IMG/VR virus record: IMGVR_UViG_3300037261_000140
Span: 1 to 44,948 of that record
Direction: 5' to 3' (one strand)
DNA length: 44,948 nucleotides
Source: a virus
In this document: piece by piece, positions 5,549 to 42,347 of the stretch
How the letters are laid out: the number at the start of each line of letters is the position of its first letter
Position numbering within the stretch: position 1 is the first letter of the stretch
Translations under genes and position numbers: made by a program
The notes under the pieces: model-generated
Told to the model about the DNA's origin: nothing
Seen by the model: the letters and a program-made list of their open reading frames with translations, nothing else
Databases searched by the model: none

Positions 5549-8304
5549 GCGGCTGACTGAACCTGGGATACGTTAATACTGATCGGGATGAAATAGATGG
5601 CAGTAGCCAGCTTGATTTCAACCGCAACAGCCATTTCAGGCCCATTGATGGTGACCTTTTGGTTTTTATAACCAAGAGGAGCATCGGAACTGCCGGCGAT
5701 TAACTTCAACCGTTTGTAGCCGTCCATTTTTTGAGCCAAGAAGCTCAAAGCGGTAGCTGCATCGACATCGGCCAAACTCTTACCAACGAACGTGCTTTGG
5801 AAGCTCGCGGCCAGGTCGAGGGCCAAGATATCGGAACAGTAAACTGCTTGGATGCTGTTATAAACGAAGTTGGTATCAACTCCGTAGGTTGTTTGGTCAC
5901 TGACCCAACGATTGCCGGCTGTATCCTGTGTTAGGAACAGAAGACCTGCGCTGAGTGCATCTTCAACATCGCCGGGGCTGCCGGAATCAAATCCAGTAGG
6001 ATCGGTGAAGCTGATGACGTTTGCATATTTGTTGACGATGGCTTTATAGAATCCACCGGCTTGCATTCCAGCGGCCACACAAGCGGCGTACCAAGGCATG
6101 AAACTGGTAATAACCCCTTTGGAGTTAACCTGAGTCGGCCTTTGCATGGTAAGCGAGCAACGGTAGTTCGCGAGACTTTGAGCCTGCGCTTTAGCATTCG
6201 CATAACTTCCCCAGAAGGAAAGAATACAAATGCGATTCTTTTTGAGTTTTGGTGTGCTAAACTCGATACAATGCGATTTCGTCGCAGCATTGATCGCGGC
6301 GATTGTATAGGTCGAACTTGCATCGGTAAGCCCGGCGATGATATCAGCCGAAGCATCTTCTGAGAAAAGAGGAACGATGATGTTGACATCAATCGTAGCC
6401 AATAACTCGATAGCTTGGATGATTGTCGCAGCAGTAGTTCCACCTCTGGCGCCGCCAGCAAGAAACGCTGGGTTTACCATAGGATTGGGCAATCCGGCTG
6501 TAGCTATCATATTGAATTGCACTTTAGTCGCAACAGCAACATCTTGAGCGAATTCATAAGCTGCATCTTTGATTCTTCCAGGTTGACCAGCGGCCACAGT
6601 AGAAGCGATACCAACGGCGGCAACAGCGTCCAAAGCAGAAGGAGGTAACTGACTAGCTGAAGAATCAGCTGAAGCAGAATATCCCGTTTGAGAATTTAAG
6701 AATGCGGCTAAATCTCCGATTGTGGAATACTGAGCGAGATTAACGCTTAAGTTAGCGCCTGATCCGCCAGTAACGGCTGTGGTCAACAAGTTAGTTGTTT
6801 TGTTGATGGTAACCGTTCCAGAAGTACCTTGATAACCAAGATAAAGGGCAAAGGTTGTTGGAACGTCGATTGTTTGGCTGTAGCCAATATCGGTTCTGTT
6901 GATTTGAACTTCAACTTCGGCTTCTTGAGAAGCGACGTTGATACCGGGAGCTAAACCTAAAGCGGCCAGATCTCCGGGGGTAGAATCGATCAATTCAAAA
7001 CTTCTTCCCCAGCCACTTCTATAAGGAGCAGGGTTAGCGGCCATGGTCAATTGTACAGAGTTCGGAGCGGCACCGGCTGAAGCCACAAGGCCAGCAGGAA
7101 GTACGGCGTTAAGCTCGACAATTAATTCGGCGATATTCCCGTGGGCTGGCGTATTGATTATGCCAGGAGGGAAACCTGTGATAGTATTTGTCGGAGAAGA
7201 ACCTACGTCTCCGCTGATAACAGAGAAACCAGTGTTGGTTACAGCTGAAGCGCCCAAGAGAGCGAAATTTCCGGCTGATGCCAATAATGGAGCTTGTTGA
7301 GCATTCACGATAGTCGCAGCACTTAAGGAGATAGCTCCAGATAGAGCGATTAAGCTACCGTTGACAGTTCCACCAGAAGTATCCGTGATCGAGGTTTGAG
7401 CGATGACGTTACCATTGAAGGTACCGATAAATGCAGAGTTGAGGGTAGCAGAGCTACCAACGATGAAGTACACGTTTTTAGCAAGTGCTCCACCAGTTAA
7501 ATTGATGACTGGAATTCCAGTTGAACCAGTAACGAGGGTACTTGCAGTTTTGATAACGAATACATCGGTAGCCGTACCGTTAAAGGTAAGTGCTCCGCCG
7601 GCATCTAAAGTAGCCGCGCCAGTATTGTAATAACCGGCAGATAATGTTTGTCCATCGAGAACAGCAGGGATCGCGACATAACCGCCGTGACCAGCCAAAG
7701 ATGTATAGGCCGCCAAAGCATCAGCTTGAGCCGTTGCAGCAGAAAGACCGCCGCTGGATGAACTAAGGGTGACCACAGTAGCAGGTCCGCCATTCAATCG
7801 AACAGAAAAAGTATCTCCGTTTAAGGCAGCGCCGAAAGCGGTGATAGTATTACCAGCAAAAGAAGGAGGAGTTTCAGTTTCTAAAGAGGTGACTTGATAA
7901 CGGTAGAGATTTCCGTTTGTTCCGAAGTTGTTATCAAGAATTGTTGCATAGTCGGTGTCAACAAGGGCCGAAGCTTGAGAACTGGAGTTTGTTTTTACGA
8001 TGTAAATTTTGTTGGCCGAGCCGACGATATCTGCATCGCCTGACGGAGCAGAGAAAGCCGCGAAGGCATCAACAATGGGTCCTGAAACATATTGTTGCAT
8101 GACCTTATCGAGTTGATCGGGCGTAAAGGAGTTATTTTTCAACTGAAACGAGGGATCAGTGAAAACATCTCCGCCATCGGCTTCACCAAAGATAACTACG
8201 TTACCAGACGAACCAAGTCCAACTGGCTGGCTTTGAACCGTAATTTCCGGGTATGCGCCGGGAATATTAGTATTTAAAAAACTTGTTACTTCTCTTTGAG
8301 ACAT
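5545..8304 (-). CDS. tail sheath protein with inserted, permuted DUF3494-like domain
   Basis: 919 aa. The N terminus (NIPGAYPEITVQSQPVG, then GNVVIFGEADGGDVF) and the long C-terminal part (ATIIQAIELLATIDVNIIVPLF, ANYRCSLTMQRPT, VYCSDILALDLAASFQSTFVGK, KLATAIYFIPISINVS) match the contractile-tail sheath plan: an N-terminal exchange arm, variable domains and a conserved C-terminal core. Residues about 181-386 (7764-7147) are not sheath-like. They contain the DUF3494 ice-binding-protein signature in swapped order: DALAAYTSLA, LDGQTLSAGYY, INLTGGALAKNVYFIVG, FNGNVIAQTSI and SLIALSGAISL come first, followed by NFALLGASAV, VISGDVGSSP and NTITGF. The insertion splits another sheath domain (RLNGGPATVVTL before, NIAELIVELNAVLPAG after). 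At 919 aa it is larger than many sheaths. The domain should be displayed on the outer tail surface. The tube gene follows, and a 107-aa gene precedes it. Confidence 0.9.
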   Translation of the reverse strand: MSQREVTSFLNTNIPGAYPEITVQSQPVGLGSSGNVVIFGEADGGDVFTDPSFQLKNNSFTPDQLDKVMQQYVSGPIVDAFAAFSAPSGDADIVGSANKIYIVKTNSSSQASALVDTDYATILDNNFGTNGNLYRYQVTSLETETPPSFAGNTITAFGAALNGDTFSVRLNGGPATVVTLSSSSGGLSAATAQADALAAYTSLAGHGGYVAIPAVLDGQTLSAGYYNTGAATLDAGGALTFNGTATDVFVIKTASTLVTGSTGIPVINLTGGALAKNVYFIVGSSATLNSAFIGTFNGNVIAQTSITDTSGGTVNGSLIALSGAISLSAATIVNAQQAPLLASAGNFALLGASAVTNTGFSVISGDVGSSPTNTITGFPPGIINTPAHGNIAELIVELNAVLPAGLVASAGAAPNSVQLTMAANPAPYRSGWGRSFELIDSTPGDLAALGLAPGINVASQEAEVEVQINRTDIGYSQTIDVPTTFALYLGYQGTSGTVTINKTTNLLTTAVTGGSGANLSVNLAQYSTIGDLAAFLNSQTGYSASADSSASQLPPSALDAVAAVGIASTVAAGQPGRIKDAAYEFAQDVAVATKVQFNMIATAGLPNPMVNPAFLAGGARGGTTAATIIQAIELLATIDVNIIVPLFSEDASADIIAGLTDASSTYTIAAINAATKSHCIEFSTPKLKKNRICILSFWGSYANAKAQAQSLANYRCSLTMQRPTQVNSKGVITSFMPWYAACVAAGMQAGGFYKAIVNKYANVISFTDPTGFDSGSPGDVEDALSAGLLFLTQDTAGNRWVSDQTTYGVDTNFVYNSIQAVYCSDILALDLAASFQSTFVGKSLADVDAATALSFLAQKMDGYKRLKLIAGSSDAPLGYKNQKVTINGPEMAVAVEIKLATAIYFIPISINVSQVQSAA

Positions 8305-8644: not shown

Positions 8645-10150
8645 TTAACTCTTTTTCAATCGTTTATTGGCTTTGTCTTCCATAAACTTAGCAAGTTTGG
8701 CCGATCCAATACTTTTCCCAGCCGGCATTTCTGACTTGGTTACTGCCGAACTTGTTTTTGGCGCCTGAGCGTCCTTACCAGTATCAAGAGCTTTCTTTAA
8801 ATTAGCCGAATGATACTCAACTTTCCACATTCCAGATTCAGATTTTATTACCTGACCTTCCTCTGATTTTGCGGCAGGAGCAGGTGAGGGAGAAGGAGCA
8901 GGTGAGCTAACGCTTCTTGCACCTTGTTGTATTTTAGCGGGAGTGATCGAACCACTGGCCGCAGCATTCGCAAAATTTTGTCCAAAATCTTTCTTCAGCG
9001 ATTCAGACTTACCAAAAGCACCGCTAATCCCAGCTTGAACCCCTTGAGGAGTTGCTGTTTGGGTATGGGGTACTCCGCCTGCGGCACCTGCCGCTGCGAT
9101 CCCGGCTTGTATTCCGCCGTCTTTTTTAAGTTCTTCGCCTTCATGTTGATATGTGTCAGAACCATGAACGATTTCGTGACCGTTCAAATTCTTGATTCCG
9201 ATATTATGGGCATGTTCCTTAAATTGATTAGGAGATGCCTCATGTGTTTTGTATCCATGTTGTTTCATACTATGATGAACTTTGTCGATTAAATGTTGTC
9301 TAACCGACATTCCAAATTTATCGTTGCTGCTTTTTTTCTCTTCTGCTTTATCTACACCATCTTCACTTTTCGGAAGATTGGGTTTAGGCATATCTTTGAG
9401 TTCTGATAATTTATCGCTATGTAAAGACTTAGCATCTGACATCACAGAATCTTTACTTGATTTCATATCCGAGCCATATTTATTGGCATTTCTAACTCGA
9501 TTGCCCGCGCTAGATCCTTCTGTAGTTTCCATTCCGCTATGTTTGAATGGGCTTTTCTCATGGACACCCTTTTCATCTTTTTCTAAATTGGCTGAATGAT
9601 ACTCAACTTTGTGCATTCCAGCTTCAGTTTTTCTGACTTGGCCTTCCATACCGTATTTCTTGACGTTATAGGGCTGAGCGCCGGGAGCCGCATTGTTACC
9701 TTCAGCGTTCTCTTTCGGGTTCTTGTCGGGATCTTCTTGATGTCTAACTCGCCTTTTTCCCACGATGTCTTCTTTATCGACTTCTTCTTGGTGTCTGTGG
9801 GGAGCTTGCGTACCTAACTTCTTAGAGTTCTCAGATTCGTATTTATCCATGCCTTCTTCCGATTTGGGAAGGTTGGGCTTGGGCATTTCTCTTGAAGATG
9901 CCAACACGTCTCGGTGAAGATCTCTTGCTTTCGATTCATATGTTTCTTTTGCCTGGGGATGTTCACTAGGAGCATGATGAGCTTCTCGTGCCATTATTCC
10001 GGCACGCGACATACCTGGATGCCTATTAATTTCTTTATGAACGCCCTTTTCAGCCTTTTCTAAAACTTCAGACTTCCCAATCAATTCCTGTACTTTAGCA
10101 AGAATTGCTTCGGCTACCTGTCTTGGAGTTACTTGTTCATCGCGTGCCAT
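8645..10150 (-). CDS. repeat-rich hydrophilic late protein with KSE motifs
   Basis: 501 aa, very rich in Lys, Glu, Ser, His and Gly; most of it is probably disordered. It contains repeated modules: MPKPNLPKSE twice (coding positions 9857-9886 and 9362-9391), VEYHSANL twice, and several copies of a (K/E)GVH or SGM(H/W)K phrase. KSE occurs seven times. A central piece (residues about 285-345, HLIDKVHHSMKQHGYKTHEASPNQFKEHAHNIGIKN) may be a small folded domain. The same MPKPNLPKSE peptide occurs near the C terminus of the prohead protease at 28561-28590. No enzyme motif is seen. Its place among neck and tail genes suggests a virion or assembly protein, possibly processed by the phage protease (inference). 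The gene has an AATCTT-like box upstream. Confidence 0.6.
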   Translation of the reverse strand: MARDEQVTPRQVAEAILAKVQELIGKSEVLEKAEKGVHKEINRHPGMSRAGIMAREAHHAPSEHPQAKETYESKARDLHRDVLASSREMPKPNLPKSEEGMDKYESENSKKLGTQAPHRHQEEVDKEDIVGKRRVRHQEDPDKNPKENAEGNNAAPGAQPYNVKKYGMEGQVRKTEAGMHKVEYHSANLEKDEKGVHEKSPFKHSGMETTEGSSAGNRVRNANKYGSDMKSSKDSVMSDAKSLHSDKLSELKDMPKPNLPKSEDGVDKAEEKKSSNDKFGMSVRQHLIDKVHHSMKQHGYKTHEASPNQFKEHAHNIGIKNLNGHEIVHGSDTYQHEGEELKKDGGIQAGIAAAGAAGGVPHTQTATPQGVQAGISGAFGKSESLKKDFGQNFANAAASGSITPAKIQQGARSVSSPAPSPSPAPAAKSEEGQVIKSESGMWKVEYHSANLKKALDTGKDAQAPKTSSAVTKSEMPAGKSIGSAKLAKFMEDKANKRLKKS

Positions 10151-22544: not shown

Positions 22545-23513
22545 TTATGCTTCGGTGATACCACTGATTAATGTAATTGCGGTCTGAGCATATAGAGCAC
22601 CATGAACCGTAGTAGTAGCTTGAGTTGCAATTGAAGTTGCAGCCAAGATAACGCCTCTAAATGTTGAAGCTGTTTTCAAAGTTACTGCGCCGGTAATGGC
22701 CCAGAAAACATTTTGCGGCAAAATTCCACCAGTTAAATTTACTGCGATTCCAGCTTCTAAATTAAGAGTTCCAGAAATCTGCATAACGATTGAATCTAAT
22801 GGTCCGCCATGAATTGTGATGGGGCCAGTGATATCAACAGGGGTAGACCATTTGTAAATTCCAGGAACAAGCGTTTGGCCGTTAAGAGTTCCGCCGCCTA
22901 ATCCAACGACTGGGGCCGGGACAACTAACCCTTGAGCAAAAGTGTATGCCGCTTGCATGTCAGTGATTGCCTGGGTCAAATTAGCGGGAGTCGGGGCTGC
23001 GTTGTCAGGAGAATCTACGTTTCCAGAAACTTCAGCAGCACTACCATGGGCTCCACCGAGGTTCGGAGTATAAGTAAATCCAGTGATTGCGGTATGTGAA
23101 ATTGGACTTACTGCGATATTTCCCGTAACTGTGGCACCAGAGGCATTACTGATTCCTGCTTCTGATAAAATTCGATAGTTTCCAGCAGTGAGTAAAGGAA
23201 CAATGCCAGGGCCGTGAGCAGAATTGATTGCGCAATAGGCTCCAATGTTGTTCACGATATCCATTGCATATGGTTTGCTTGCAAACCCATCGACCATTAC
23301 GGCGATGTCATGCGGAGTAAGAAGTTTTTGACAAAGGATAGCTGCCTGAATGTTTAAGGCAACTTGTTTATCGCCCATTGCATCGATCAGTCTCGCCATG
23401 GTATTTTTGGAAAGAACAGATCCGTTTTGAACTGCAAGTGCGAATTCTTTACCGGCAGGTTTGCTTGCCAGGGCGTCTATAATATCCAAAACTGTGTCAT
23501 TCATTAGGGTCAT
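22545..23513 (-). CDS. virion-type protein with C-terminal DUF3494 ice-binding-like domain
   Basis: 322 aa. Residues about 1-100 form a helical phage-specific N-terminal domain (DIIDALASKPAGKEFALAVQNG; note the repeated phrase ASKP at 16 and 78). Residues about 103-322 match DUF3494, the bacterial and fungal ice-binding beta-solenoid: LLTAGNYRILSEAGISN, VTGNIAVSP, AITGF, an alpha-helix phrase (LTQAITDMQAAYTFA), LGGGTLNGQTLVPGIYKWST, VNLTGGILPQNVFWAITGAVTL, ASTFRGVILAATSIA and ALYAQTAITLISG. The order is canonical and near full length. No signal peptide is present. It follows the capsid and zinc-ribbon genes and has its own AATCTT box, so it is probably a late virion protein, for example a head fibre. 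Ice binding is only one possible role; DUF3494 proteins also act as adhesins. Confidence 0.85.
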   Translation of the reverse strand: MTLMNDTVLDIIDALASKPAGKEFALAVQNGSVLSKNTMARLIDAMGDKQVALNIQAAILCQKLLTPHDIAVMVDGFASKPYAMDIVNNIGAYCAINSAHGPGIVPLLTAGNYRILSEAGISNASGATVTGNIAVSPISHTAITGFTYTPNLGGAHGSAAEVSGNVDSPDNAAPTPANLTQAITDMQAAYTFAQGLVVPAPVVGLGGGTLNGQTLVPGIYKWSTPVDITGPITIHGGPLDSIVMQISGTLNLEAGIAVNLTGGILPQNVFWAITGAVTLKTASTFRGVILAATSIATQATTTVHGALYAQTAITLISGITEA

Positions 23514-23994: not shown

Positions 23995-25395
23995 TTATGA
24001 ACCGCCGGGGGTTAATTGACCCGTGATGTTCTCAAGGAGTACGTTCTTACGAGGTTGGAAAACAGCGAGAGACAAGAATCTGAAATGTGCTTCGGGGAGC
24101 GACAAGTCATTGATTGCGAGTTTCAATTTGCTGTAGGGAGCTAATTGAGCGATGCTCATGGTGTTCCCTTGAACCAAGAATCCAGTTACAGATCCACCTT
24201 GACGATTTCCGAGATCGGAGAACACTGGGTTACCGATGCTTTGAGAAATCTTACCGATGAATTTGGCTGAAGCAGCAGACCCGTTGGCATCACTACGATA
24301 CACGTTGTAATACTGGGCACCGGCTACGGCGGTAATGGTTACGGTAACCTTGTCACCGGCAGCAGCGACCACTTGGGAAGCTGAAGCAGAAGGGAGCGAC
24401 TCACCACGCATACTGACGGCAGTAACGTAGTAGAAATATGTCGCAGCCTGGAGCAGCGAACCAGCTGCACCTGCATCGGCAAGAGCGGGAGCAGCGGCTT
24501 GGGCCGGGCTACCTGAACGAGCGCGAGCGGGACGAGTTTTACCAGAGAGGAAACGAGACGCTTCGAGAGAAACGATTGCACTTGAGGTCCATTGGGTTCT
24601 CAAATGAGCGCCAGTGGCTTCTTGAGGAGAGCCGGCGAGCATAATACGTTCTTTCGCATGCGCGATTTTGTTGTATTGAGAGAGGGTGATGGGATCGAGA
24701 ACGAGTCTGTCAGCCGCACCCATGTTCATTGCTGAACGAACCGAACTGTCTTCGATGATGGACTGTGCTAACGCACCGCCAACAGAAAGAATAACAGTTT
24801 GATCTGAGCCGTACTCAGCAAACATCAAATCTTGAGTGTTTGATTGAGCGTCGGATTGACGAACTTGTTGATCGAGGCCGATCATGTTGGGGACTTTGGC
24901 TACCGCGAGAGGGTTACCATCAAATACTCCAGCATTGGAGAAATCGGATTGACCACGGAAAAGGTCAAATTCAATATCCCCCGCGAGTTTCATCGCAGCG
25001 TCAGCAGAGGCTCTGTCTTCGGCTTTAACACCGTCGAAAGCACCAATCATGTTCGCAGCAACAGTGACTCGACGAGTCGTGCTGTAATATGACATCGGGA
25101 CCACGGCACGAACATAGTTCGTTGTGTCTTCTTCACCGATTCCACCTTCAAATTGGGCAGAACCTCCGAAGATACCATAGTCAAGTTGACGGTTGAACTG
25201 ATGGAGTTGAGACTTAACGTCTTTACTCGGCAGCATCTTTTGCAACTTGATATGACTGTCGTCAAATGTAACATTATGCATCACTGGCGATAGATCTTCT
25301 ACCATTAGCGCGGCACCTTGGGCAAGCTGACCAGGAGCGGCATTGTAACTGCCTGCTTCTAGGGCTTTCATGAGAGACTGAAGTTGTTCAATCAT
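23995..25395 (-). CDS. major capsid protein, HK97 fold with Ig-like insertion
   Basis: 466 aa, coded directly after the scaffold-like gene and before a strong terminator. The N-terminal part (DLSPVMHNVTFDDSHIKLQKMLPSKDVKSQLHQFNRQLDYGIFGG) and the part that follows (FEGGIGEEDTTNYVRAVVPMSYYSTTRRVTVAANMIG, then DIEFDLFRGQSDFSN and DPITLSQYNKIAHA) have the order of the N-arm, E-loop and P-domain of large-phage HK97-fold capsid proteins. Residues about 300-405 (TYFYYVTAVSMRGESLPSA, VTVTITAVAGAQYYNVYRSDANG) form an Ig/FN3-like domain inserted before the last A-domain strands, as in SPO1/Twort-type capsids, and would stick out from the capsomer. The C terminus (RFLSLAVFQPRKNVLLENITG) returns to the core. 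It assembles the prohead shell. Confidence 0.9.
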   Translation of the reverse strand: MIEQLQSLMKALEAGSYNAAPGQLAQGAALMVEDLSPVMHNVTFDDSHIKLQKMLPSKDVKSQLHQFNRQLDYGIFGGSAQFEGGIGEEDTTNYVRAVVPMSYYSTTRRVTVAANMIGAFDGVKAEDRASADAAMKLAGDIEFDLFRGQSDFSNAGVFDGNPLAVAKVPNMIGLDQQVRQSDAQSNTQDLMFAEYGSDQTVILSVGGALAQSIIEDSSVRSAMNMGAADRLVLDPITLSQYNKIAHAKERIMLAGSPQEATGAHLRTQWTSSAIVSLEASRFLSGKTRPARARSGSPAQAAAPALADAGAAGSLLQAATYFYYVTAVSMRGESLPSASASQVVAAAGDKVTVTITAVAGAQYYNVYRSDANGSAASAKFIGKISQSIGNPVFSDLGNRQGGSVTGFLVQGNTMSIAQLAPYSKLKLAINDLSLPEAHFRFLSLAVFQPRKNVLLENITGQLTPGGS

Positions 25396-26908: not shown

Positions 26909-26946
26909 TCTAATATGTTAGAGCCAAATAATGGGAATTATTGGGA

Positions 26947-26975
26947 TTGACAGCTTTTTCGTGGTATTTTATAGT
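26947..26975 (+). promoter_or_regulatory. sigma70-type promoter before the prohead protease
   Basis: TTGACA (26947-26952), a 17-base spacer and TATAGT (26970-26975) form a near-consensus sigma70 promoter. The start would be at about 26982, giving a 13-base leader to the ATG at 26995. Confidence 0.7.
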
Positions 26976-26979
26976 AGGG

Positions 26980-26990
26980 GTAATCTTATG
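26980..26990 (+). promoter_or_regulatory. AATCTT box before the plus-strand protease gene
   Basis: Plus strand reads GTAATCTTATG. This is the only plus-strand late-type copy of the motif, and it precedes the only plus-strand morphogenesis gene, in coding orientation. It is four bases from the ATG, close as in the 10535 case, and downstream of the sigma70-like promoter, suggesting dual early and late control. Confidence 0.45.
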
Positions 26991-26994
26991 TGAT

Positions 26995-28722
26995 ATGGCC
27001 ACTAAAATTCACGGCATCGCCGCTTCAGAAAATATCGATTCATCCGGAGAACGAATAATCATCGCAGGCATGGATATTTCCAGCCTTGAAAAAGATGGTG
27101 TTTTTAACTGGGAACATAAAAGCGATCAACCTGCCCAAGTAGTGGGTAAGATATTGAAAGCAAAGAAGATTTTCTCAGAAAAAGACTGTGAAAATGACGA
27201 TGAAAGAGGCTTCTGGGAGAAATGCGGAGTTCCATTCGTCTATGTAATGGGCGAACTGCTCGATGACTATAAAGACTCAGCCAAAGAAGTCGCTGCCCAG
27301 TTCCGATACGACCATGACCATAAAGACCGCGACGAGCGCAGTATCAGCAACTTCTCTATAGAAGGCGCCAAAATCGATAAAGTTGGCATGGATATTCCCC
27401 ATTCCATCGCCCGGAAGGTCACAATTACGGTCCATCCATGCAATAAAGTGGCCGTGGCGTCAATCAAACTTGACAAAAAAGACAAAAAGTCCAATGATAT
27501 CAACTCTCTTTTCAAAACAGAGTCTATTGAGATCGAACTGTGCAGAACAGAAGAACTTGGATTTATTAATTTGGCCAAAAAGGAAGATCCCGCCGCACAC
27601 GCAAAAGCTTTAGGGGTAGCACCGATGAAAAAAGACGATCAAGACCTGGCCGGCACCACGGGCGCTCCCGCAGGTGTGGCCAAAAAAGTGCTTCCAAAAC
27701 TTCAAAATCAACAAATCACCCCCGGATCGACCCCTCTCATTAAAGACGGCGAAGCCGGCAAGAAACTTGGCACCACGAGTGGCGGCCATGACATTCTGAG
27801 TCATAAGCGGGTCCATGAATATGGAGCCCTTTCTCCCAAAGATCACCTTGAAGCTGCGAATTTCCATTTTAATGCCGCGAGCGGCGCCGGGAACCCCAAA
27901 GATGGCGCCCATCATATGGATAAAGTCAGACTTCACATGTCCGCCCATAAAACAGCCTCTCGCCGGGAAGAAAGACTTCATCCCTATGAAAGCGAAAGAC
28001 TCATTAAAGCCCTAGACGCTGGTTCCGGCATGGCGGCCCCTTCTAACCTGGCCGGCGGTGCCGCCCTCGGTTCGGAAAGCTTTAGCCTTGATCGAAAAAT
28101 GAAAAAGAATCCAATGTTGGCCCGTGCCGAAGAAGAATATCAGTCCTGGGACAAAAAAGAAGAATTCGTTAACTTCATGCAGCAAAAAGTGCCCGGAATG
28201 AAAAAGGGCGAAATTGACGCTATTGGTCGAACCGTTGCCTTGAGAAAAGGTATGGCCGACTCGAAAAAATGGCTCGCCAAATTTGACTTAAGCGGCGAAG
28301 GTAATCGTCCAGGCGGTAGCTTTGTTATGAAAGATGAAGAATTAGACAAGTCTGCCCAAAGACATCCTCCTAAGACCCCCGGAACCAAAAGTCCCACTGT
28401 TAGACAAACCAGAGAAAAAGGCACAATGGAGCAAAAAGGCGTTCATATGCCTCCTTTGGGCCAATCTGCCGGCGGACGCAGTGTTATGGGAGCCTTTGTT
28501 GATGACAAAGACAAATACGCTACACGTCACGCGGGGCACACCTTAAAAGAATTGAAAAATATGCCTAAGCCAAATCTCCCGAAGTCCGAAGAAATGAATA
28601 AATCCTCGGATATTATGATGCTTAACGAAAAAAGCATGTCTTCAATGAAAAAATTCTTCTCTAAAGCCATAGATGACCAGGCCAAAGAGTTAAAAACCAA
28701 AGATATCAACGATCTCTGTTAA
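26995..28722 (+). CDS. prohead (capsid maturation) protease with long C-terminal extension
   Basis: 575 aa from ATG 26995; an upstream TTG in the same frame (26941) would lie before the promoter and is rejected. Residues 1-160 match the T4 gp21/SPO1-type prohead serine protease: GERIIIAGMDISSLEKDGVFNWEH (catalytic His 41), VVGKILKAKKIF, FVYVMGEL, and SISNFSIEGAKI (catalytic Ser 121), then SIARKVTITVHPCNKVAVA. It cuts scaffold and head proteins during maturation. Residues 160-575 are hydrophilic, Lys/Gly-rich and without a clear domain except a possible helical His-rich block (LEAANFHFNAASGAG, MDKVRLHMSAH). The C terminus carries MPKPNLPKSEEMNKSS (28561-28590), the same motif as in the 501-aa protein. 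It is encoded opposite to the leftward head genes. A structured RNA begins at its stop codon. Confidence 0.85.
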   Translation: MATKIHGIAASENIDSSGERIIIAGMDISSLEKDGVFNWEHKSDQPAQVVGKILKAKKIFSEKDCENDDERGFWEKCGVPFVYVMGELLDDYKDSAKEVAAQFRYDHDHKDRDERSISNFSIEGAKIDKVGMDIPHSIARKVTITVHPCNKVAVASIKLDKKDKKSNDINSLFKTESIEIELCRTEELGFINLAKKEDPAAHAKALGVAPMKKDDQDLAGTTGAPAGVAKKVLPKLQNQQITPGSTPLIKDGEAGKKLGTTSGGHDILSHKRVHEYGALSPKDHLEAANFHFNAASGAGNPKDGAHHMDKVRLHMSAHKTASRREERLHPYESERLIKALDAGSGMAAPSNLAGGAALGSESFSLDRKMKKNPMLARAEEEYQSWDKKEEFVNFMQQKVPGMKKGEIDAIGRTVALRKGMADSKKWLAKFDLSGEGNRPGGSFVMKDEELDKSAQRHPPKTPGTKSPTVRQTREKGTMEQKGVHMPPLGQSAGGRSVMGAFVDDKDKYATRHAGHTLKELKNMPKPNLPKSEEMNKSSDIMMLNEKSMSSMKKFFSKAIDDQAKELKTKDINDLC

Positions 28723-40574: not shown

Positions 40575-42347
40575 TTATGGTCTTTCGTTTGCTTCGTTAA
40601 CGTATTGATCGGCCTGTGAAGTCGCCCGGCCAAATTCAGCGTCGGCCTTAGCTTCAGACCGTTCAAACATATCATCTCGGGGGTGACAGACGATTCCGCC
40701 GCACGTTCCCAGTATGGTCGCAATGCTTACTGCGTTACTTAAAGATTCCTCCACAGCCTTCGTCGCGTCAAATAGGCCTAATGACTCAGCTTTTCCGTAC
40801 TGCTGATTTTCGATGTCATAAACCAGATGGGGGTTATCTATCAGTTTTCTAAGGACTTCTTGGGCCTGTTCGGGGTTGTAACCGGCGTTATCCAGAAGCT
40901 TATTCGGCAACGCAAGGAGGGACGGCATGAGGACTTCCCTGGCCGGATCTCCGGCCTGAAGCTCAGTCGCCAGCTTAAGGAACATGTCGAGGGCGATACG
41001 GCATCCGCCGGGCAATGCACCGTGTTTGATTGCACTCCGAACGGCGCATACAGCGTCTTCGCATCTATCGTGAGCTTCTTTGAGTTCGCCATTTGATCCC
41101 CCAAAAATGGTCAGTTTTGCAATACCATTGGTTATTTTGCCAAGACGTTCTTCTAACCACATCTTATCGGCATCACTTTCTGCGCCGGCTATCATGGTTT
41201 TTAGTTCATCGGCCCTGATTTCAACAAGTGTCGGATCAGGATTACCAATGACCGTGGAACGAAATCGGTAACATTCAAAAGATTCTGGGCCAACTCCAAG
41301 ATCGCCCATTGTTGCATTTTGGACTGGATCTTTCATGCTGAATACTTTGGCCCCAGTGAAGGCAGCCAAGTCGTGCAAGAAATGGAGTTGACTATTGGTG
41401 AACTGATGCATTGGCGTAACCAGAGGAACAATGTTCATAGTTGTTGGATTATTCATGTTAAACGCCAACTGCGTCAGGACCGACTCACTAAAACCGTGAG
41501 CCACGACAACAATGTTTTTGAAGTCACTGTTGCCTTCTTCTACATACTTTCTACCGATGCCATCGAATAGACCTTGAAAACTTATGAGGTCATTAACCAT
41601 GCCATCATAAAGGATGTACAAAGGTTTTTCTAAATAACAGCGTTGATTACCTTGGTCATTAATGAAGGCCGTATGGAATTTTCCGATACTCTCTTCGTAG
41701 CCCATGGGAATAGGGAATCCATCGATCCGTTCGACCTTGTATCCGGACTTTCCGGATAGTTCGCGAATGGTAACGTGAGAAGAGTCACCGTATCCGACTT
41801 CTTCAAAGGCTTTGATAACGGCATCGGCCATATCGGTGTCACCATTGGCACTGATAGTAGCTACCATCTTGAGCATGCCTTGATTCTCAATTCCAACTGC
41901 GATACTGCGAGATTGGATGTAGGGAATCAAGATCTCTCTGGTGACCTTGTTAATTCTTCGTGCGGCCTTCTGTGGGCTATATTGTGGATTTTCTTTGCAA
42001 AAATCAAATAGGTTGGAAATAATGTTGTAGGATAAAATAGTTGCGGTGGTCGTACCGTCGCCGGCCTCTGAAGCAGTTCTTTTGGCCGCATCACGGGCTT
42101 GCTCGGTAATCAAGTGTTCATATGGATCGATTGCGCCAAGACTATCGAAAACGGTAACACCGTCTTTGGTATTTTTGTTTCCGATACCATTGAAATCACT
42201 CTCGATTAGAATGTTAAAACCGCCGGGGCCAAGTGTTCGACCGACCGCTTCAGAAACTCGATGCATTGTATCGAGAATTTTCTTCTGCAATTGTTTTTTA
42301 TCGATCATGTAAATCTTGGGGGAAGTTTTCGCTTTTCTATAAGACAT
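40575..42347 (-). CDS. groEL-like: GroEL-like chaperonin
   Basis: 590 aa, group I/phage chaperonin. Motifs: SEAVGRTLGPGGFNILIE (nucleotide-binding loop, residues 33-50), KDGVTVFDSLGAIDPYEHLITEQARDAAKRT, GDGTTTATIL (96-105; catalytic Asp region), and a C-terminal equatorial part with GALPGGCRIALDMFLKLA and IVCHPRDDM. The apical part (residues about 190-370) is divergent from host GroEL. No GroES gene is visible here and the C terminus lacks the GGM tail. Giant phages such as EL and OBP encode similar single-ring or double-ring chaperonins that fold phage proteins without GroES. AGGAGG and a TGATATAAG -10 signal lie upstream, divergent to the helicase. The symbol is descriptive only. Confidence 0.85.
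   Translation of the reverse strand: MSYRKAKTSPKIYMIDKKQLQKKILDTMHRVSEAVGRTLGPGGFNILIESDFNGIGNKNTKDGVTVFDSLGAIDPYEHLITEQARDAAKRTASEAGDGTTTATILSYNIISNLFDFCKENPQYSPQKAARRINKVTREILIPYIQSRSIAVGIENQGMLKMVATISANGDTDMADAVIKAFEEVGYGDSSHVTIRELSGKSGYKVERIDGFPIPMGYEESIGKFHTAFINDQGNQRCYLEKPLYILYDGMVNDLISFQGLFDGIGRKYVEEGNSDFKNIVVVAHGFSESVLTQLAFNMNNPTTMNIVPLVTPMHQFTNSQLHFLHDLAAFTGAKVFSMKDPVQNATMGDLGVGPESFECYRFRSTVIGNPDPTLVEIRADELKTMIAGAESDADKMWLEERLGKITNGIAKLTIFGGSNGELKEAHDRCEDAVCAVRSAIKHGALPGGCRIALDMFLKLATELQAGDPAREVLMPSLLALPNKLLDNAGYNPEQAQEVLRKLIDNPHLVYDIENQQYGKAESLGLFDATKAVEESLSNAVSIATILGTCGGIVCHPRDDMFERSEAKADAEFGRATSQADQYVNEANERP

Follow-up and report, generated by a model that had tools for sequence, protein, structure and literature searches.

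The window, a viral contig of 44,948 bases, encodes a predicted myovirus tail sheath protein of 919 amino acids whose middle region is interrupted by a domain that profile searches and structure prediction identify as a circular permutant of the DUF3494 family, opened at the junction of the fold's N-terminal part with its helix (Table 1). We consider it probable (roughly 0.6) that this solenoid, hinged to a loop of the sheath, is an ornament of the virion surface that acts as a weak, multivalent adhesive.

Table 1 Features in the window (residues are those of the 919-aa sheath protein)
Feature	Residues	Position	Strand	Evidence
Tail sheath with internal DUF3494 domain, 919 aa		5545..8304	(-)	phrog_279 tail sheath, E 6.2e-22
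5' half of interrupted sheath subdomain	135-180	7765..7902	(-)	Aligns with insert-less sheaths as far as the insertion point
Permuted DUF3494 insert, including short hinges	181-386	7147..7764	(-)	PF11999 E 1.7e-32; AF2 pLDDT 89.2; absent in 58 homologous sheaths
Alpha helix opening the permuted domain	189-204	7693..7740	(-)	AF2 H189-204
DUF3494 C-terminal part (LDGQTL ... SLIALSGAISLSAATI), placed first	214-333	7306..7665	(-)	CP profile 156.5 bits; maps to 6eio 85-227
Linker around NAQQAPLLA, native C-terminus to native N-terminus	334-343	7276..7305	(-)	Similar NAQxAPLLxxAG in other permuted domains
DUF3494 N-terminal part (AGNFALLGASAVTNTG ... ITGFPP), placed last	344-379	7168..7275	(-)	NP profile 61.7 bits; maps to 6eio 24-73
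3' half of interrupted sheath subdomain	387-440	6985..7146	(-)	Aligns with insert-less sheaths, starting at the insertion point
322-aa protein, standard-order DUF3494 and separate N-terminal domain		22545..23513	(-)	PF11999 E 1.3e-51
Major capsid protein		23995..25395	(-)	phrog_752 E 4.6e-42

The contig belongs to a tailed phage with a contractile tail, and genes for the major capsid protein, portal and terminase all lie within the window. The interval singled out by the first-pass annotation corresponds exactly to residues 181–386 of the minus-strand sheath open reading frame. The best stretch of the phrog_279 match (residues 481–917) covers the conserved C-terminal sheath core, and the AlphaFold2 (AF2) model of the full-length protein (pLDDT 84.7) was matched by the sheath of phage phi812 (9eui_E; VIA Z 31.2 over 496 residues); unlike this fold comparison, a search of PDB sequences with the sheath profile gave no match. 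Like the phi812 and T4 gp18 sheaths, the protein pairs a conserved core with additional domains placed mid-sequence, but none of the solved sheaths matched is described as carrying a DUF3494 domain. Myxococcus phage Mx1 was the only isolate found by similarity to the sheath protein (42.9% identity, with 70% of the protein covered). Elsewhere the genome encodes a GroEL-type chaperonin (40575–42347; phrog_5725, E 1.6e-82), and a repeated peptide resembling MPKPNLPKSEE, perhaps a motif for processing or scaffolding, is common to two different charged proteins (8645–10150 and 26941–28722). The major capsid protein may have an extra inserted domain of its own, since its residues ~303–379 match profiles for head-closure and major tail proteins.

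DUF3494 domains in standard order run from N-terminal coils through a helix, which comes after the N-terminal part, to C-terminal coils; in the insert the halves are swapped. Pfam PF11999 matched the insert with 113.2 bits in two stretches, above its curated cut-off of 28.7 bits, and the best stretch aligned insert residues 9–152 to profile positions 63–207. Across the whole window, positions 7309–7848 aligned to profile positions 28–207 and positions 6919–7257 to profile positions 2–109, that is, in swapped order, and comparison with EfcIBP (6eio) placed insert residues 11–153 at 85–227 and residues 156–204 at 24–73. Against a canonical-order profile built from standard-order phage domains, the natural insert gave two separate matches (148.5 and 32.9 bits), whereas in silico rotation at the predicted join produced a single match of 189.3 bits spanning profile positions 1–189. 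The best-scoring rotations were those at the predicted join, with lower scores elsewhere, and the top score was 5.9 bits among the residue shuffles of the insert that scored at all, which rules out a chance resemblance to DUF3494. Nor is the arrangement a tandem DUF3494 pair mistaken for a permutation, since the sheaths have neither an N-terminal part before the C-terminal part nor a second C-terminal part after it (a real tandem pair, in L143, was kept separate). An assembly or frameshift artefact was likewise rejected, as at least 14 distinct sheath sequences from independent contigs have intact frames and the same join. The PF11999 mapping, the 6eio mapping and the rotation scores thus agree with the first-pass annotation, which had read DUF3494 phrases in swapped order; the outcome that it named as counter-evidence, halves without a DUF3494 match even after exchange, did not occur.

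Structure prediction pointed the same way. Supplied with 12 homologous inserts, AlphaFold2 modelled the insert (pTM 0.88) as a β-solenoid with a long α-helix, structurally matching solved DUF3494 members, so that the fold expected from the sequence, rather than an unrelated one, was obtained. In a Foldseek search of the PDB, ranks 1 to 31 were all DUF3494 ice-binding proteins, mostly aligned over ~145 columns, as would be expected of a sequential aligner given a permutant; VIA-align gave Z 17.2 with 7bwy, 9li0 and 7bwx. The predicted domain shares its solenoid and helix with the ice-binding proteins EfcIBP (6eio), SfIBP_1 (6bg8), AnpIBP (7bwx/7bwy) and FfIBP (4nu2), and aligned with solved DUF3494 proteins at 28–40% identity over ~147–153 residues (VIA Z 16–17); it differs from them in that its halves are swapped and that it sits in a phage structural protein. 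Within the full-length model the insert is confidently folded, with low-confidence hinges at residues 184–186 and 379–386 on either side. All AF2 models are of monomers.

The proposal that one sheath domain had been cut open was borne out by homologues lacking the insert. The sheath tree set comprised 72 distinct sheaths (80 loci were retained out of 240 relatives); 58 of these have no such insert at the insertion point and 14 carry the insert at the same place, and later scans yielded further carriers (L118, L120, L125 and L149). The insertion point lies between a strand ending VTLS and a helix HxNIAELIxELN, and insert-less homologous sheaths, mostly ~716 aa long, read, for example, VTLS-TPTDHDNIANLIIELN at the junction. 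The interrupted region precedes the conserved C-terminal core, with invariant sheath columns at residue 431 and beyond, and the regions flanking the insert are somewhat less conserved than that core (majority residue 0.66–0.67 versus 0.74). In known sheaths (T4 gp18 and relatives), domains inserted ahead of the core point outward, so the insert is probably exposed on the surface as well.

Other material also occupies this part of the sheath. L043:15001–17859 (Mx1) and L116:4001–6583 carry extra material, family unassigned, in or near the same region, which therefore accepts different inserts. A second optional cassette of ~65 aa (YTFTVTAANATVGATYSNNGQTFTV...GTLTKTSGTGDATI) occurs at two sheath sites—around residue 117 of the L052 sheath, where it accompanies a permuted DUF3494 domain, and after ELNEY/ELNRY in L084, L105 and L106—and in a baseplate-J-like protein (L024).

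On a sheath tree built without the insert, its presence requires at least five changes, and identities of insert and sheath disagree between carriers (91% versus 59% for L044/L054, 81% versus 59% for L048/L049 and 81% versus 65% for L046/L048), which indicates that the module moves by recombination. Larger blocks are also exchanged: L052 and L055 share an identical stretch (residues ~172–621) that exceeds the insert, so this pair is no proof of insert-only exchange. Between diverged copies the insert has a dN/dS of ~0.06–0.19, that is, it is under purifying selection. It is therefore optional, patchy among relatives and exchanged between sheath genes, as a virion ornament would be, and its likely exposure follows from sheath architecture; it does not have the fold of immunoglobulin-like (Ig-like) ornaments, being a predicted β-solenoid.

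DUF3494 domains are not confined to these sheaths. The permuted module also occurs in a second sheath lineage, distantly related to the first, where it occupies a different loop, ahead of an RLNGG hairpin instead of behind it; this lineage, too, has empty homologues. Permuted copies are found in non-sheath proteins of 2,422 aa (L123) and 353 aa (L211) and in capsid-adjacent proteins of 530–542 aa (L127 and L129). The phage studied here has a second DUF3494 protein, of 322 aa, near its major capsid gene. Homologues of that protein lie near capsid genes in L030, L127 and L129; in L127 and L129 they have the same N-terminal domain (38–51% identity) and capsid neighbour, but their DUF3494 domain is permuted. 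Standard-order domains are common in other phage proteins, including the baseplate-J-like protein of L024, and several phage contigs of 162–171 kb have four DUF3494 domains in three to four proteins. The permuted form accounts for 27 of 28 sheath domains and the standard form for 55 of 60 non-sheath phage domains, an association for which the Fisher P value (1.5e-16) is only indicative, given the relatedness of the copies and the use of a permuted sheath to seed the initial searches. The exception, a standard-order domain inside one sheath (L023, residues ~413–602), together with many standard-order inserts elsewhere, rules out that permutation is needed for insertion into a loop. The earlier suggestion that permutation would let both ends meet at a loop is thereby qualified, although sheaths strongly prefer the permuted form; the native C- and N-termini of permuted domains are joined by only ~10 residues, so the termini lie near each other in both forms.

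Searches of isolate phages with the insert and with a standard-order phage DUF3494 domain gave no match, nor was there any PF11999 match in Synechococcus phage S-SKS1, which the literature lists as a carrier of PF11999 homologues. Among 84,980 bacterial and archaeal species genomes, only three relatives were found, all in standard order; the cellular relatives include Acidobacteriaceae metagenome-assembled genomes (MAGs) named 'palsa', a term for permafrost peat.

In the domain tree, permuted and standard domains interleave, and a single permuted clade was not rejected by the AU test (P = 0.056). The linker, ~10 residues of the NAQxAPLLxxAG type, is similar in most permuted domains across both sheath lineages and the non-sheath proteins, suggesting a common origin with later exchange of the C-terminal part. 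On these sequence comparisons, one permutation followed by exchange of C-terminal blocks with standard domains fits best. L261 and L176 have linkers different from those of other permuted domains and may derive from separate permutation events. In L261, a second-lineage sheath, the permuted domain (residues ~143–315 onward) is unlike the others in its C-terminal part as well as its linker and is perhaps an independent permutation.

If the solenoid is a surface ornament, two flexible hinges would tether it to a loop of the middle, probably outer, sheath subdomain, and sheath architecture would place one solenoid per subunit, and thus six per sheath ring, on the tail exterior. Displayed in this way, the solenoids may hold particles on a surface or in a matrix, such as host envelope sugars, extracellular polymers and possibly ice or mineral. 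In the permuted form the solenoid would be anchored at the loop that connects its N-terminal coils to the helix instead of at the native termini, and would therefore turn a different side outward; the strong association of the permuted form with sheaths suggests that the outward-facing side matters there. The nearest functional parallel, by analogy, may be an Ig-like ornament such as T4 Hoc: Ig-like domains of tailed phages lie on the virion surface, have been proposed to mediate interactions with the surroundings and, like the insert with its presumed exposure, vary between relatives (PMC10385173). Hoc, however, has an unrelated fold and sits on the capsid, whereas the insert lies in the tail sheath and is circularly permuted. 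A more far-reaching form of the adhesive reading is tentative at best: the permuted solenoid would be a mobile display cassette of single origin, marked by its NAQxAPLL-type linker and placed in two sheath lineages, at two or more loops, as well as in capsid-adjacent and other virion proteins, its re-oriented binding face making the whole contractile tail adhesive and possibly ice-binding.

Ice binding by the insert, judged from sequence and model, is possible and not favoured. That true ice-binding activity has been kept, fixing or protecting virions at ice in freezing soils, would accord with the ice-binding proteins that are its best structural matches and with the 'palsa' MAGs among its few cellular relatives, but seems unlikely given that the DUF3494 family also includes substrate-binding members (PMC12337378). 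A purely structural role, in which the solenoid has no external ligand but packs on adjacent subunits of the sheath or on the following ring, stabilizing the tail in its extended or contracted state, we also think improbable: insertion in the sheath itself and purifying selection would both suit such a cement, but some relatives are wholly devoid of the insert, unrelated proteins hold the same module and the low-confidence hinges are probably flexible. The same selection, along with the several DUF3494 proteins per genome, makes it quite improbable that the module is a neutral passenger, spread by recombination and tolerated in an exposed loop, even if its patchy distribution and exchange are what a passenger would show. 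A report on Arctic viral contigs describes PF11999 genes as auxiliary genes serving host cryoprotection (PMC11515562). They share the Pfam family with the insert, which is instead a domain of a virion protein; as it is internal to the sheath and yields no free gene product, that reading is contradicted for the 919-aa protein, and we give it almost no credence.

The surface-ornament reading, which we prefer, joins parts of known kinds; what is new, within the literature checked, is that the domain is permuted, sits in a sheath and is mobile. The open-access literature searched contained no paper joining DUF3494 with phage or ice-binding with tail sheath, and the open-access papers that mention 'circular permutation' together with 'ice-binding protein' are, judging from titles and abstracts, general works on repeat and symmetrical proteins. 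The first-pass remark that no sheath with such an insert had been described accordingly held for this literature, as it did for natural permutation of DUF3494. The insert seems to be a naturally occurring circular permutant of an intensively studied ice-binding fold. Its distribution indicates that phages carry DUF3494 as part of the virion, tail sheath included, rather than as an auxiliary gene only. Pipelines that label PF11999 matches as host cryoprotection genes would misread such virion domains. Filled and empty sheath pairs, together with a capsid-adjacent scaffold that bears either a permuted or a standard domain, provide a natural experiment that bears on why domains become permuted and on what use a displayed solenoid is to the phage.
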